From Psychrobacter glacincola (GTDB taxonomy: Bacteria; Pseudomonadota; Gammaproteobacteria; Pseudomonadales; Moraxellaceae), in contig LIQB01000002.1 of NCBI GenBank assembly GCA_001411745.2, positions 125,892-189,891 on the forward strand: a stretch of DNA of 64,000 nt, written 5' to 3'. Each line of letters starts with the position of its first letter. Positions within the stretch are counted from its first letter, which is position 1. Below, one piece after another: positions 57,545-64,000 of the stretch. The notes beneath the pieces were generated by a model. The model saw only the letters and a program-made list of their open reading frames with translations, did no database searches and was not told where the DNA came from. The position numbers and the translations under genes are program-made.

Positions 57545-57585
57545 TAAAAAAAGCCGTTATCACATTCAAGATAACGGCTTTTTTA
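57545..57585. terminator. Bidirectional intrinsic terminator
   Basis: A 15-bp stem (AAAAAAGCCGTTATC / GATAACGGCTTTTTT) around an 8-9-base loop. It separates the hydrolase gene from the leftward operon ending at 57638. Confidence 0.92.
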
Positions 57586-57637: not shown

Positions 57638-58714
57638 TTATAACCGTGCCGTATAGTCATTATTACCGTCATCAAGAGTGCCACATGCCTCGGCACGATT
57701 GACGATTTCTGTTGCCCAAGCGCGATGGGTAGCAGGCTCTAGCATGGTATTATTATATTTAAACACCGCTTTCGCCTCGCTATGCAAGATTGCTTGCGCC
57801 TCATCTAAAATGCTCAATGGTACGCAATAGGCTTGTTGCACCAGCGCAATTTGGCTTGGATGAATGACCGTTTTGCCAACCAATCCTAAGCTAACATCGC
57901 GGGTTAGCTCTTGCATAAATAGCGTTGGCTGATCCAAATATTCAAAGACGGGCGCTGTCAAATAAAAGCCATGCGGCACAAAGCAGCCGAGCAGCTGATA
58001 GGCAAGGGTGCCGATAGGAGTATCATAAACGATGCTGTTTTTGGGACGGCGCAAACGCAATGCTGCAAATAAATCATTGCCACCGATACGCAAGGCAAAT
58101 ACAGGCTGGCTAAAGGCTTCTTTAAAACCAATGGCCAATTCCTGATTATGATGCGGATTAAATAACGCTGCGGTTTCAAGCGTCGGCATCAATAATTGCT
58201 CAGTACTCAGATTTTGACAGGCCATACGCCAATTAGACAGACTATACATATCGACTTTTGGCATGACAAAGCCATCAATCAAATCGATATGGGCAAAACC
58301 TGAGAGCTGCTCTAACATCGCTGGATGACGCGGGCGTATAAATACCAGCGGGCGTGTTGGTTGTTCAATCTGAATGTCGGCATGTTTTGATGGGTCATTG
58401 ATGCTATCGACATGCGTCGCCCATGTATGCAGCAACGTTTGCAAGCGCTCAAGTGCCAGCTCAACATCATTATGGCTGACGGCATCTTCTAGGCAGATGA
58501 TAATACTATTAATCGTTGGTAATTTATCGCGCTTAATGACTTGCCAAATATCTTGGCGAGTTGCTGGCATGTATAGGCTAGCCCCCAACTGATACGGGTG
58601 ATGCGCATGTGGTTTGAGCATCGCATGACGCTCAGTAATGAGGTGAGCGTAAGACTGGGTATTTTGATAAAGAGTAGACTCGTTGTTTTGCATATCTGAC
58701 ATAATTGGCATCAT
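57638..58714 (-). CDS. CitE-like TIM-barrel C-C bond lyase of the Ter-associated metabolite module
   Basis: About 358 residues of the HpcH/HpaI aldolase or citrate-lyase beta type. Recognisable parts are LGASLYMPATRQDI near the start, IICLEDAVSHNDVELAL with the acidic metal site, FVMPKVDM, MPTLETAALF, LRIGGNDLFAALRLRRP, and GLVGKTVIHPSQI. This is the variant (called C-C bond lyase) that accompanies StiP/TRSP phosphoribosyltransferases in tellurite-resistance gene neighbourhoods. It is the last gene of the leftward operon, 198 bases beyond the StiP-type gene. The start is one of two adjacent ATG codons; the Shine-Dalgarno is unclear. The exact reaction is unknown. Confidence 0.85.
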   Translation of the reverse strand: MMPIMSDMQNNESTLYQNTQSYAHLITERHAMLKPHAHHPYQLGASLYMPATRQDIWQVIKRDKLPTINSIIICLEDAVSHNDVELALERLQTLLHTWATHVDSINDPSKHADIQIEQPTRPLVFIRPRHPAMLEQLSGFAHIDLIDGFVMPKVDMYSLSNWRMACQNLSTEQLLMPTLETAALFNPHHNQELAIGFKEAFSQPVFALRIGGNDLFAALRLRRPKNSIVYDTPIGTLAYQLLGCFVPHGFYLTAPVFEYLDQPTLFMQELTRDVSLGLVGKTVIHPSQIALVQQAYCVPLSILDEAQAILHSEAKAVFKYNNTMLEPATHRAWATEIVNRAEACGTLDDGNNDYTARL

Positions 58715-58915
58715 CAATAGTGATAAGTGAATGGGTATAAAACCTAAGAAGTATCATCAAGTGGCATGGCTCAGCAGCAATGACCGCAAACCCAAAAATA
58801 CGTTTGGTAATGTCAAATTCGTTTAGCCGACAAGAAGGAGTAGTTTTACTTTTTTCTTTCGCTGCTTTGAGTTTGAGACGGGTCTGGTTTATAAAAACCG
58901 CGAGTGTAGCAATGA

Positions 58916-60112
58916 TTAATGGTCTTCGCTACGTTGCTTGATAAGCGTGATGGCTTGATAGGGATGTATTTTATCACCTAATACACTAACAATGATATTT
59001 CGCTGGGCACATAAATGTCTTAGCAGTATGGTATCAGGATGGTCAGCGCTGGCTAATAGTATGCGTTCAGGGTCACGGCGCAATATCGCCCGTGTTGCCT
59101 CTGCAATCGTTGGCTTAATGCGGTTACGATTGCTGATAGCGTAGTCTGCTGCCAGCTTGTCGATTAAAGCAGCTGTCTGATAGCGCGGCTGCTGAAACGT
59201 CGGAAAGCATTGCAAAGATGGGGCTAATGCACGGCGCGCTGCATCGATATGAGTGATGAAAGCTAAGCTATGGTCGACCTCAATTAAGTTATCATAAAAC
59301 ACGCTGCGGTGTAGCCCCAATGCTGGCTCGGTATATAAACTTCGCGAAATCAGTCCTGATACCGTACTATTTAATAGCCCTGACGGAATTAGCCAGTCAT
59401 CGATACTAGCTGCAAGCCAAGCAACGCCAGCTGGATCAGCCAGCGTTAATAAGGGAATAACACCTGCGCCTTGATGAAAGATATTGGCAAAGTTTGCATG
59501 GCTAGGATCGCTAAATTTTTCTAAACTATGAGCAAGCTCTTGATAAATCGCGCCTTTGCCTGTCCAGCCGTCAACAAATACGATAGGACTGTCTGGATGA
59601 GCATTCAATATCATGTGTAACGCAACTGGATCAAGTCCGCGGTCGCGAATGATGCTGATTCCATAATGCATGCTCGGCAAAGTAGAGCTGCTATTAACGT
59701 CTGCTAACGCACGCTGCAACAAAACGCCAACTGGCAAACCTGCGCGCACCAAACTGACTAAGACTAGCGGGCGCTCATTACTAACGATATGTTCATTTCG
59801 AGATTTTTGAAAAATGTGATGTAGCGTATAAGCCAAATTAGCAATATCAGTGGCAGTCCTCTCAGCTCCTTGCTCTAATGCTTGCGTGTATAGCTGCTCA
59901 TGCATAGCAGTAGGCGCTTGCTCCAAGGTCAACATATCAGAATAATGACGTTGCCCACTTTGAATAAGTGCTTCTTTTTGGCTCACAGGCACATCGGCGA
60001 CCGCGTCTTTAGCGACTATATCGAGCAGTACGGTCACATCACTGGCAAGATAGCTGCCTGAGCCATATGCTGCTAATTTTTGAACATTAGGGTTTGTTAT
60101 ATGATGGGTCAT
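58916..60112 (-). CDS. StiP-type phosphoribosyltransferase with C-terminal PELOTA-like domain
   Basis: A 398-residue protein. GSYLASDVTVLLDIV leads in; LVLVSLVRAGLPVGVLLQRAL is the PRTase core with the family-specific arginine, IRDRGLD follows, and FVDGWTGKGAIYQEL is the PRPP-binding loop form. The C-terminal ~80 residues, RILLASADHPDTILLRHLCAQRNI, resemble the PELOTA/L7Ae-type RNA-binding fold. Databases often name this family cysteine protease StiP, but the fold is that of a phosphoribosyltransferase. Comparative genomics predicts it makes a nucleoside-like metabolite with the other operon products. The gene ends 63 bases before the HAD start upstream. Confidence 0.88.
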   Translation of the reverse strand: MTHHITNPNVQKLAAYGSGSYLASDVTVLLDIVAKDAVADVPVSQKEALIQSGQRHYSDMLTLEQAPTAMHEQLYTQALEQGAERTATDIANLAYTLHHIFQKSRNEHIVSNERPLVLVSLVRAGLPVGVLLQRALADVNSSSTLPSMHYGISIIRDRGLDPVALHMILNAHPDSPIVFVDGWTGKGAIYQELAHSLEKFSDPSHANFANIFHQGAGVIPLLTLADPAGVAWLAASIDDWLIPSGLLNSTVSGLISRSLYTEPALGLHRSVFYDNLIEVDHSLAFITHIDAARRALAPSLQCFPTFQQPRYQTAALIDKLAADYAISNRNRIKPTIAEATRAILRRDPERILLASADHPDTILLRHLCAQRNIIVSVLGDKIHPYQAITLIKQRSEDH

Positions 60113-60175
60113 AAAATAATTTCTACTTCTATAAACGGCGGCGATTATTGTTTTTATTTAGGAGGGATTAAGTGT

Positions 60176-61003
60176 TTAGAATGATTGAGAGCTAAGTCGT
60201 TCATGTAACTGACCATGATTGGGCATACCATACCAGTCAAGCAGCTGTAAAAATGGTAAATCTGCCAGACTGTCACCAAAGCCAAAGCTTGGTCGTTGAC
60301 TGTCTAAATGATTAGCTAACAAGAACTGTACCGCATGGCGCTTATGAACTGCGTGCGGCAATATCGCTAGATTATTCGCATTCACGTGCACATAAAAATC
60401 CTGCTCAAAGTCTCGTATTAACGTTGGCAGTTTTGCAGCGAGATCTACTAATGCTTGATGGTCTTTTTGCCCATGTTTGATAGCCAGATAAATGGTTAAT
60501 TCTCTATTATCAGCGCCATCACTAAAGCTATCGATATGCGGTGTAAAGACCAGCTGGCTACTGTCATTTTTGCTGTGATTCGCGAATAGCTGGCTCAGCT
60601 GCTGCAATTTTTCTTGCAATGGCGCAAGCTTATTATACATATGCTGTTGCCACTGGGCTTGTAACATACCGTCTTTGTCAAGAATAATCGCGCCATGAGT
60701 CAAAACTTGCCAGCTATCAAAAGGCAGTTTTACGCGCTGGATTTCACTACGGTCACGTGCCGTCACTACGATTAGATCAGTGCTAGCAAGTAGCCAGTTA
60801 AAAAACGTGGCTTGGCGCTGACTCATAAAACTTAATGGCTCGCCTTGTTTGTTAACGGTTGCGCAAACTAAGTTTTCAGCTTCAGTGGTGGGTAAGTCCC
60901 ATGCGTCAATTTTACGCTGAGTTTGAAAAAGCGTATCGTCCAAATCCATTAGCGCGTAAGGCTTAACGATATCAGGATTGGCTTGAAAGAATGGGCTGGT
61001 CAT
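60176..61003 (-). CDS. HAD-superfamily hydrolase of the Ter-associated metabolite module
   Basis: A 275-residue HAD phosphatase. The nucleophile motif DLDDTLFQTQRK is at residues 19-30, motif II is VVTARDRSE, and motif IV is SFGFGDSLADLPF. The cap region is inserted between motifs II and III. HAD proteins of this kind are part of the predicted metabolite pathway with the PRTases and the CitE-like lyase. It would remove a phosphate from a sugar or nucleotide-like intermediate. It lies between the two PRTase genes on the same strand, with gaps of 63 and 82 bases. Confidence 0.88.
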   Translation of the reverse strand: MTSPFFQANPDIVKPYALMDLDDTLFQTQRKIDAWDLPTTEAENLVCATVNKQGEPLSFMSQRQATFFNWLLASTDLIVVTARDRSEIQRVKLPFDSWQVLTHGAIILDKDGMLQAQWQQHMYNKLAPLQEKLQQLSQLFANHSKNDSSQLVFTPHIDSFSDGADNRELTIYLAIKHGQKDHQALVDLAAKLPTLIRDFEQDFYVHVNANNLAILPHAVHKRHAVQFLLANHLDSQRPSFGFGDSLADLPFLQLLDWYGMPNHGQLHERLSSQSF

Positions 61004-61085
61004 AAAGGTGTCCGTAAGGGTTGAATGTGAAAAGCAGAGCGGGATTTAGAGGATAGTTGTAAGAAGACAGTTCTTATAAAATAAT

Positions 61086-62414
61086 TTACAGCGTCGGATC
61101 CACCACTAATACATTCTCCAAACCTTGCCACATAGCATCGACGCTATCAGCGGACGTTTCCACACACAAGACAATCAAATCCCAATCGCTAGGTGTAACG
61201 TTATACGCAAAGTTGGTCATACCAAGCCCATAATTATCATTAAAACTTAGCATCGAGGTAATTGCGCCACCAAGCGCAATCGGTGAACGGGTTAACGCAC
61301 TAAAATTAACCGTATTCTTACTATTCTCTACATGCGTATTTTGCGCAAGCCATTCCGCCAATAAAAACGGTAACCAAACAAACTCATTACTGCCCAATAC
61401 TAAGATACGCTGTGGCAACTGTTCTTTATCAAACGGCTCTTTCTCAGGTTGAGCTTGCTTGTTAAAAACATTAAAGGCAGTTTGAAACCTCAAAAGATAA
61501 TGATCAAACCCATCAGTGCTATCTAGGGTTGGGAAACGTCCCCAATTACCAGTATTACCTAGCGCCTGACTGCCTGCCTCAGTTGTATCGACCGACGGCA
61601 TCGTGATCGGTTCAGGATTGGGCGCATCTGTCCAAGTCCATGCACCAGACAGTAGATGATGACGTTGAAAGTGGATATTGGGCAGGCGTTTTGCGATTTG
61701 ATCAGATACAGCTTCATTGGCATCGGCTGCATTCTGTTTCTGGTTTAAAGACCAATCAACCAAAGTGGTAAGACGTACTTGCTCTAGTTGGTCAAGTCCT
61801 GCGTTACGAAGGGCAGTGACGACATTAACGCAAGTATTGCCCGTCGATGCTTCATCATCCACCATAATCAAGGTTTTGCTTGCTAGTAATTGCGCTTGGG
61901 TCACTGTATCTGCACTTTGATAAATGAGATGCTGGCTGGCATGACTGTGGTCTTCGCTGAAAGTGGTTAATAAAGAGTCGCTGCTACTGTCCTTATTGTC
62001 ATCATGTTGCGCATGCCGCGTAGAGTTCAATAGTAAGGCTTTGGGGTAACGCGTTTGTAGCGCTTGATGTACCCCCGCAGATAAGCCAACCGCCGTCTCT
62101 GCCATACCGATGACTAAAATCGGCTCAGGCAAATCGCTAGGAACCAAATTCGCCAAGTCAGTAAAAGCATGACGCATGGTGCTAGGAGCCACTGGAATAT
62201 GACGACCTAATACTTTTGAGACAAACAAAAAGGCACGTTTTGGGTTAATGCGTTGTGCAAATCCAAGTAAGTCTTCTAATTGATAATCGTTACTTGGTTC
62301 TGCCCCATTTTTCGTAGTGGCTGAATTGGTTTGATAGGTTAAATCAAGATTGCCGCGTGGTAGGGTAATGGTGCAGACATAGCTTTTTTTCATGGAAATA
62401 CTGTTTGTAGTCAT
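61086..62414 (-). CDS. Phosphoribosyltransferase with TRSP domain (Ter-associated)
   Basis: A 442-residue protein. The N-terminal half is a type I PRTase fold: LEDLLGFAQRINPKRAFLFVSKVLGRHIPV, ILVIGMAETAVGLSAGVHQAL, and TLIMVDDEASTGNTCVNVV, which is the PRPP-binding loop (VVDDExSTG-type). The C-terminal half contains RILVLGSNEFVWLPFLLAEWLA and VTPSDWDLIVLCVETS, matching the TRSP-type domain. Together with the StiP-type enzyme it should build the predicted nucleoside-like compound. A second ATG seven codons in is possible. It starts 26 bases after the TerB/J gene, so they are co-transcribed. Confidence 0.88.
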   Translation of the reverse strand: MTTNSISMKKSYVCTITLPRGNLDLTYQTNSATTKNGAEPSNDYQLEDLLGFAQRINPKRAFLFVSKVLGRHIPVAPSTMRHAFTDLANLVPSDLPEPILVIGMAETAVGLSAGVHQALQTRYPKALLLNSTRHAQHDDNKDSSSDSLLTTFSEDHSHASQHLIYQSADTVTQAQLLASKTLIMVDDEASTGNTCVNVVTALRNAGLDQLEQVRLTTLVDWSLNQKQNAADANEAVSDQIAKRLPNIHFQRHHLLSGAWTWTDAPNPEPITMPSVDTTEAGSQALGNTGNWGRFPTLDSTDGFDHYLLRFQTAFNVFNKQAQPEKEPFDKEQLPQRILVLGSNEFVWLPFLLAEWLAQNTHVENSKNTVNFSALTRSPIALGGAITSMLSFNDNYGLGMTNFAYNVTPSDWDLIVLCVETSADSVDAMWQGLENVLVVDPTL

Positions 62415-62439
62415 ATAAAGGTTTCAACGTTATTGAGTG

Positions 62440-63513
62440 CTAAAATCGTAGTGTTTCTTTTGCAAGGTTTAGTTCTTGAGCTTTTTCTTGAAGTACCAGT
62501 TTCACAGATTCAGGTAAGTGAGTGTATTTGTCAGGATGAAAGTCTTTGATCTTTAACCTATAAGCTCTACGCATTTCTTCGATAGTAGCTCCTTCTAACA
62601 AACCAAGAATCTTTAATGCTTTTAGATTATCAGAAGCTTCTGTAGGTTTGTCTTGGTTTTTAAGGGTTTCAAAACCAGAGTAAACATCCTCTAATATTTC
62701 ATTGCTAATGCCCATTAATTTGCTCAGATTTTTAATCTCTGCTAGACCTTTTTCTATATGTAACCATTTTCCTGACTCTAAGTTATTGATTATTATTCGA
62801 GCTGATGCATAGAAAATAGTATTCTTGTCATTAGTAGTATTTGCTCTATTATTGAAATCCTTAACACATTCTCTCAAATCTATTGAAGTACCTGATAAGA
62901 TTTTCATTTGATTTTTTAAAAAATCTCGTTCTTCTGGATTGCTTTCTATGTGATTTGAAAAAACATTTTTGATAACTTTAATGTTGTCTTTAGACCAAGA
63001 TTTTGAATCATTAGAATCACCTTTTTTTATGGAGTAGTAAGCCAAAATTTTTATTGTAGGAATGAACCATTCCATAAGTAAAAAAGAGCTAGAGCTTATA
63101 CGAATTTCCTCTTGAGATTTGAGTTTATCGAGAATAACGCCATCTTTTAAAAGCGTAATATTAAACTCTAAGGTGATATCTTTATTTCTAGGCAAAATTA
63201 AAGCATTGATAGGCACACTTATTGAATAAGGACCATTATTATCGTTATTGCGAGCACCAGTTATAAAGTTACCTTCTTCATCATTAAAAATATCATAATA
63301 ACTTTTTACATTTTGTCCCTGATAAGCAAGTTCAAGAATAACAACTTCTGTTCCATAAGGAATAGTATCCATACTTAAGTGTAGATACTTGCCCTCTAGC
63401 TTCGTAGTATAGGAATAGTTTCTAGTGGCAGTATTATCTGAAACACTTTCATCATCATTTGACAAAGCACCTATTATGAAAAAAACAGCAACTAAAATTA
63501 TTATATAAATCAT
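62440..63513 (-). CDS. Membrane-anchored TerB-like/J-domain protein
   Basis: A 357-residue protein. Residues 1-19 form a TM anchor. About 30-140 is beta-rich, with EGKYLHLSMDTIPYGTEVVILELAYQG and PYSISVPINAL; I cannot match this part to a family. About 150-290 is helical with TerB/DjlA-like spacing. The last 60 residues are a J domain with the HPD motif in RRAYRLKIKDFHPDKYTHLP. It resembles DjlA in overall plan (TM, TerB-type middle, C-terminal J) with an added beta domain. It is the first gene of the leftward operon. Base composition is more AT-rich than its neighbours, which may mean it was acquired separately. Confidence 0.78.
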   Translation of the reverse strand: MIYIIILVAVFFIIGALSNDDESVSDNTATRNYSYTTKLEGKYLHLSMDTIPYGTEVVILELAYQGQNVKSYYDIFNDEEGNFITGARNNDNNGPYSISVPINALILPRNKDITLEFNITLLKDGVILDKLKSQEEIRISSSSFLLMEWFIPTIKILAYYSIKKGDSNDSKSWSKDNIKVIKNVFSNHIESNPEERDFLKNQMKILSGTSIDLRECVKDFNNRANTTNDKNTIFYASARIIINNLESGKWLHIEKGLAEIKNLSKLMGISNEILEDVYSGFETLKNQDKPTEASDNLKALKILGLLEGATIEEMRRAYRLKIKDFHPDKYTHLPESVKLVLQEKAQELNLAKETLRF

Positions 63514-64000
63514 ATCTATTTGCTTACTTTAGTTATTAATTTTTATTGGAATTTTTTCTTACATTTGTACTAAAATTTTTGCTTTGTATATATAGTTTTA
63601 AATAAAAAAGGTGTAAGTATTATCACATGCTACTAGAATTAATGCTCTGTGCTTGCTGTACCTACGTAGATAGAAGTTGCTAAAAACTCATTTGAGTAGC
63701 GGTGTATACTTTTGAAAGTTGGGTAACTATAGCTTTCTAATTATTTAGGTTAGATTTTATCAAGGTTAAAATCTTAAAAATATAGTGTAGCTCAACACTT
63801 GTTATTTCTAAGCCGGGTTATTATGATAGCGCGTATCGAAATAATCAACTACTAAATAAATCAAGTGTTTAGATGTATTTATTTAAGGTTTGTCGACACT
63901 ATAGTGAATCATTAACCCTGACAACCTACTAACCACAAAGCTCCGCGACTTTGTTTGCTTAATTGCGGCGTGGTCAGCGGCGCAGCTGTCGTGCGTAACA
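63514..64000. other. AT-rich region upstream of the TerB/J operon
   Basis: About 487 bases. It should contain the operon promoter. The last ~90 bases are distinctly more GC-rich and carry a minus-strand frame that ends at a TAA (63912-63914) and runs off the window. That may be the 3' end of another gene, but it is too short to support. Confidence 0.35.

Follow-up and report, generated by a model that had tools for sequence, protein, structure and literature searches.

Positions 57638 to 63513 of a 64,000-nucleotide stretch of Psychrobacter glacincola DNA (hereafter the window; contig C3:125892-189891) hold five genes read leftward (C3:183,529-189,404), which an initial annotation had described as an enzyme module of the tellurite resistance (Ter) type. 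The most downstream gene (57638..58717, minus strand) encodes a CitE-like C-C bond lyase (C-C_Bond_Lyase PF15617, E 6.6e-97 in Pfam), which matched citrate lyase 3qll and malyl-CoA lyase by sequence, and the RipC and citE models of NCBIfam weakly and below their cut-offs. It is joined on the same strand by genes for StiP, a phosphoribosyltransferase (PRTase)-fold protein with a C-terminal PELOTA domain (58916..60112; PF11202, 1.5e-79; PELOTA_1 PF15608, 6.5e-23), a HAD hydrolase (60176..61003; Hydrolase_3 PF08282, 24.9 bits at a cut-off of 20.9) and a PRTase_2-TRSP protein (61086..62414; PF15609, 2.4e-52; PF12500, 7.1e-17), and by an AT-rich gene for a J-domain protein with an N-terminal hydrophobic helix (62440..63513; PF00226, 28.1 bits at a cut-off of 27.8). 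The coordinates and these domains stood as initially annotated, except that the TerB domain assigned to the J-domain protein gave no profile match at E<=1. The proposed terminator, closing the leftward unit on its downstream side, was likewise found as a hairpin at about 57551..57580 (minus strand) followed by a T run (free energy -22 kcal/mol; z -6.3 computed on a 60-base stretch), although it was absent from the output of a simple pattern scan.

The statement that the window carries no ter genes proved correct for complete genes only, since its last 89 bases (63912..64000, minus strand) are the 3′ end of a gene encoding a TerD-trypsin (HtrA-like) fusion protein of 414 amino acids. This is the first gene past the edge, with its stop end at window position 63912 (L002:6804-8048, L002 being the stretch read past 64000). 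The next gene matched ATPgrasp_Ter (115.2 bits), and is followed by a gene on the opposite strand for a 430-amino-acid protein with two TerD stretches and then, in order, by a TerZ-like TerD gene (our label), an AIM24/TIGR00266 gene, a TerD gene, a gene for a TerC/DUF475 membrane protein (C3:196857-197684; TerC 46.3 bits, DUF475 higher at 386.3 bits) and another TerD gene. Further on lie genes for an RlmKL-type methyltransferase and an MscS-type channel, both identified by eye rather than by family search. Of seven TerD matches genome-wide, five fall on C3 within ~9 kb past position 64000 (three single-TerD genes, one two-TerD gene and the TerD-protease fusion), and the whole enzyme set (ATPgrasp_Ter, PRTase_2-TRSP, HAD, StiP-PELOTA and C-C lyase) scored above the Pfam cut-offs. 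One of the two remaining TerD matches, a TerF-like TerD-vWA gene (L007:727-2022, PF10138 E 6.5e-77), lies on another contig (C4, 294,374), paired with a gene of 377 amino acids that has an HSDR_N_2 match below cut-off (L007:727-3274 for the pair). An Rfam scan of L002 gave nothing at gathering score, and a profile scan for TerB (PF05099) gave no match anywhere in the genome and weak matches in two of 105 Psychrobacter genomes.

Extending the sequence thus bore out the second option of the initial annotation, namely that ter genes lie past position 64000 (five TerD genes, TerC/DUF475, AIM24 and ATPgrasp_Ter). We are highly confident that the five genes make up the biosynthetic half of a Ter locus that is chromosomal and complete, very probably that of P. 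glacincola BNF20, and that the module seemed trimmed because the window edge cuts this locus. The full terZABCDE operon that the annotation had named as a sign of an ordinary Ter locus is matched insofar as a ter set adjoins, with TerB lacking and in an arrangement other than terZABCDE.

The ter cluster of BNF20 was published in 2018 as positions 189,803-204,267 of one contig (PMC5822837), and the TerD-trypsin gene has its stop end at C3:189,803, exactly where that cluster starts. The same paper places a second terZ in 286,133-301,767 of another contig, the region into which the TerF-like gene at C4:294,374 falls, and it reports a reversed terA, a TIGR00266 gene and the absence of terB; the same reversed terA and TIGR00266 gene are present in the locus described here. 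The published coordinates leave out the five enzyme and J-domain genes, which lie just outside. Because the words 'phosphoribosyl', 'ATP-grasp' and 'biosynthetic' occur zero times in the main text of PMC5822837, the enzyme half appears not to be discussed there. The Ter locus as such is already known, being ordinary, complete and previously published. The tellurite minimum inhibitory concentration is 2.3 mM for BNF20 versus 0.004 mM for E. coli BW25113 (PMC5822837). A metabolite module thus adjoins in a strain whose tellurite phenotype has been measured, and the published cluster stops just short of it.

Gene order, whose comparison in other Psychrobacter genomes had been suggested by the initial annotation, was examined in 81 stretches from 79 genomes of the genus, comprising 78 of the 98 StiP-positive genomes (the source genome included) and genome G103. 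In the remaining 20 StiP-positive genomes, StiP and the best TerD match were on different contigs (12 genomes) or on the same one (8 genomes). The full order TerD-TerC-TerD-AIM24-TerZ-TerA(reversed)-ATP-grasp-[slot]-PRTase-HAD-StiP-lyase, ter half included, was present in 70 of the 81 stretches, by a count that took in 11 core genes and left aside the protease, the J gene, the flanking genes and second TerA-query hits. The 11 exceptions consist of seven stretches from six genomes that were cut by the 20-kb stretch limit, G077 without a TerA hit, two stretches of G006 and one of G103. The association of this enzyme set with Ter systems was accordingly upheld, both by Pfam and by its fixed position next to the TerD/TerC/AIM24 half throughout the genus. 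After dropping incomplete open reading frames (ORFs), the 81 stretches yielded 74 PRTase, 77 HAD, 77 StiP, 73 lyase, 75 ATP-grasp and 48 protease sequences, in at least 97% of which the motifs TLIMVDDEASTGNT (PRTase), DLDDTLFQT (HAD), DGWTGKGAIY (StiP) and QPGSSGSPL (protease) were found.

In G103 (L092, around 13495), a fragment of the ATP-grasp gene abuts, at the very next base, a fragment of the downstream hydrolase gene; the stretch has kept its TerD half but carries no PRTase, HAD, StiP or lyase gene. StiP is found nowhere in the G103 genome, the PRTase, HAD and lyase having been sought in the locus stretch only. Judged from its sequence, G103 has lost the enzyme half from the locus by natural deletion.

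The two halves of the locus also travel together at a larger scale, as judged from StiP/TerD and PRTase_2/TerD pairings compared by eye from tables. StiP was found in 98 of the 105 genus genomes, all of which have TerD at E 4.6e-86 or better. Of the seven genomes lacking StiP, G103 has five TerD matches and the other six have a single weak one each (1.5e-13 to 2.4e-14). A sample drawn from the family comprised 149 genomes, of which 60 scored above the PRTase_2 cut-off, and every one of these has TerD at 1.2e-83 or better. The dependence looks one-way, with the enzymes keeping TerD company and not the reverse, and the TerD half can occur on its own. As a side observation, StiP matched in two pieces at G048:C36:35047-35843 (with one in-frame TAA inside the match) and at G078:C15:34476-35432, where an assembly error is possible.

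The slot between the ATP-grasp and PRTase genes is variable. Among the 77 genus stretches in which it was scored, it contained the TerD-trypsin gene alone in 38, none of the query genes in 26, TerD-trypsin together with the J gene in 7, TerD-trypsin together with a second TerD-like gene in 3 and a second TerD-like gene alone in 3, so that the fusion gene occupies the slot in 48 of the 77. Further slot genes encode a protein with a weak V4R match, an MHYT protein, an MFS transporter, a RidA (Ribonuc_L-PSP) repeat protein, NYN/OST-HTH proteins and, in G074, one Mrr-type restriction nuclease (L073:8448-9626, PF04471 E 6.8e-19) situated between the ATP-grasp and TerD-protease genes. Other gaps of the locus carry a glutaminase, a Vut_1 transporter, an oligopeptide-type ABC transporter or a Shedu SduA gene. 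The latter (L039:12735-13970 in G014; PADLOC E 1.9e-148) lies between TerZ-like and TerA-like genes, and five genomes (L067, L078, L086, L089, L093) have a 7-kb five-gene insert between the PRTase and HAD genes, one of which was scanned and matched an oligopeptide-type ABC transporter.

The J gene itself was present in 8 of the 105 genus genomes, at 98-100% identity, and its G+C content of 0.306 stands against 0.437-0.463 in its four neighbours in the window. Where it is lacking, the protease and PRTase matches are separated by a spacer of about 50-60 bases (five stretches compared), and a single contig scan placed its relatives at three loci, all in Psychrobacter and named P. immobilis and P. 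glacincola. The HPD motif (H326 P327 D328) is invariant in the eight J-protein sequences. We read the J gene as a recent insertion in the slot and not as a Ter partner of the module, and the TerD-protease and J protein would both be optional accessories of the Ter locus.

A more far-reaching and rather doubtful reading of the slot is that it serves as a cargo site for interchangeable effectors answering to a Ter metabolite, with the TerD-HtrA-type protease, the membrane J protein, another TerD-like protein, the NYN/OST-HTH proteins and the Mrr-type nuclease as the possible candidates. Were this true, Ter would be a signal with swappable effectors, resembling some defence systems. Much of the cargo looks metabolic, which weighs against it. 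In the PADLOC anti-phage library, the lyase, StiP, HAD and J proteins had no match, the PRTase-TRSP protein had a weak generic PRTase match (E 5.8e-4), and the TerD-trypsin protein matched RT-Protease_XI (1.9e-18) and, weakly, HamA (1.3e-4), both over the trypsin part.

For the enzymes, sequence searches at E<=0.01 revealed no solved structure matching the PRTase-TRSP protein or StiP. In a structural model of StiP, residues ~66-288 aligned best with HGPRT-type PRTases (best Z 9.1, root-mean-square deviation 3.3 over 144 residues), and residues ~310-395 aligned with L7Ae-type and ribosomal-protein chains and YlxQ. As far as the model goes, this fits StiP being a PRTase with an RNA-binding-type tail, and not the 'cysteine protease' of its Pfam name. 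Following the published Ter proposal, we slightly favour a mechanism in which phosphoribosyl pyrophosphate would be the substrate from which the two PRTase-fold proteins make a nucleotide-like molecule. The lyase and the ATP-grasp ligase would together provide and attach a small acyl or amino group, and dephosphorylation by the HAD enzyme would yield a nucleoside-like metabolite. This metabolite (or metal) would be sensed by proteins of the TerD family, and TerC with sub-membrane partners would act on the envelope or on metal balance, leading to resistance to tellurite and other stresses. No identified Ter metabolite was met in the titles and abstract openings of the open-licence literature, which is a weak negative.

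Several observations weigh against this picture of one complete locus with a shared function. TerB is missing by profile; the halves of the locus in G006 (L090 and L091) sit on one contig of 3.7 Mb with ~2.5 Mb between them, or less should that contig be circular; seven genomes of the family sample have strong TerD and no PRTase_2 above cut-off; and PMC5822837 predicts individual promoters and hence a cluster rather than an operon. The StiP model, moreover, is middling (mean predicted local distance difference test score, pLDDT, 67.7), its best Foldseek match has an E of 8.3e-03 with none at E 0.001, and its best Z does not greatly exceed values of 7 to 8, which the method counts as common. 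G103, without the enzymes in its locus and with the TerD half kept, and G006, with its halves far apart, are natural experiments that the genus offers.

The separated halves of G006, the occurrence of TerD without PRTase_2 and the separate promoters predicted in PMC5822837 would also be in keeping with the enzymes being a pathway of their own parked beside the ter genes, for example one that salvages bases or nucleotides and has nothing to do with Ter. Among the 149 family genomes, however, PRTase_2 above cut-off never occurs without strong TerD, and the pairing of enzymes and ter genes recurs on E. coli and Pseudomonas plasmids, so that we hold such a parked pathway to be improbable. A somewhat less improbable, still unlikely, explanation is that the J protein is a divergent TerB replacing the terB missing from BNF20. 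Its gene lies inside the Ter locus, it has a J domain and its middle region is predicted to be helical; moreover, the authors of PMC5822837, given the missing terB, suppose that some other product mediates resistance. Against this, the protein has no TerB profile match, its AlphaFold model is unusable (pLDDT 45.9; too low in quality to discount a TerB fold either), and 97 of the 105 genus genomes manage without it. A profile search of the PDB with the J protein yielded J-domain chains, the hypothetical protein 2fb6 (E 0.021 over residues 226-288), and chance-level matches such as cytochrome c peroxidases.

The first option of the initial annotation, a trimmed Ter system in which the enzyme module has the membrane TerB/J protein as its sole Ter partner, was in keeping with a window that holds no complete ter gene. 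It did not survive the extension of the sequence, as the ter genes adjoin within ~9 kb of the window edge, strong TerD accompanies StiP in 98 of 98 StiP-positive genus genomes, and the J protein occurs in 8 of 105 genomes and lacks a TerB match; we give this option practically no credence. The trimmed module was thus rejected, on the adjoining ter genes and on the presence of TerD in every StiP- or PRTase_2-positive genome surveyed. This settles the matter in favour of an ordinary locus seen through a window edge, from which no ter gene apart from TerB is missing. The variable slot and the G103 deletion are its most noteworthy remaining features and, in our view, are mildly interesting only.

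Ter-dependent stress response systems with a predicted nucleoside-like signal were reportedly described by Anantharaman, Iyer and Aravind in 2012. The enzyme order found here matches that of E. coli plasmid pRHBSTW-00304_2 (L115), where ATP-grasp, PRTase (39.0% identical to the Psychrobacter PRTase), an ORF at the HAD position without a Pfam match, StiP and CitE-like lyase genes adjoin terZ-A-B-C-D-E. This plasmid differs in that its halves diverge, that terB, terW and a vWA gene are present, and that the gap between ATP-grasp and PRTase is empty. On plasmid p1 of Pseudomonas sp. 4810-S13 (L116) the same order recurs, as ATP-grasp, TerD-trypsin, PRTase, HAD-position gene, StiP and lyase, with a protease in the same slot that shows 32% identity over 410 columns and hits both TerD and Trypsin_2; unlike the Psychrobacter locus, it has terB, an extra HAD gene after the lyase and a single strand throughout. 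More widely, PRTase relatives were found in 2554 plasmid records, every one below 60% identity, and three PRTase matches in phage records came from two Acinetobacter phages, in line with the Ter system reported for phage ME3 (PMC7824862). According to the proposal as outlined in PMC7824862, PRTase and HAD enzymes make a nucleoside-like signal, TerD and TerB sense it and TerC is the membrane part, and a nucleoside-like Ter product is also mentioned in PMC12054061. As far as these texts set it out, the enzyme set of P. glacincola fits this predicted PRTase/HAD, TerD and TerC logic of Ter-dependent stress response systems.

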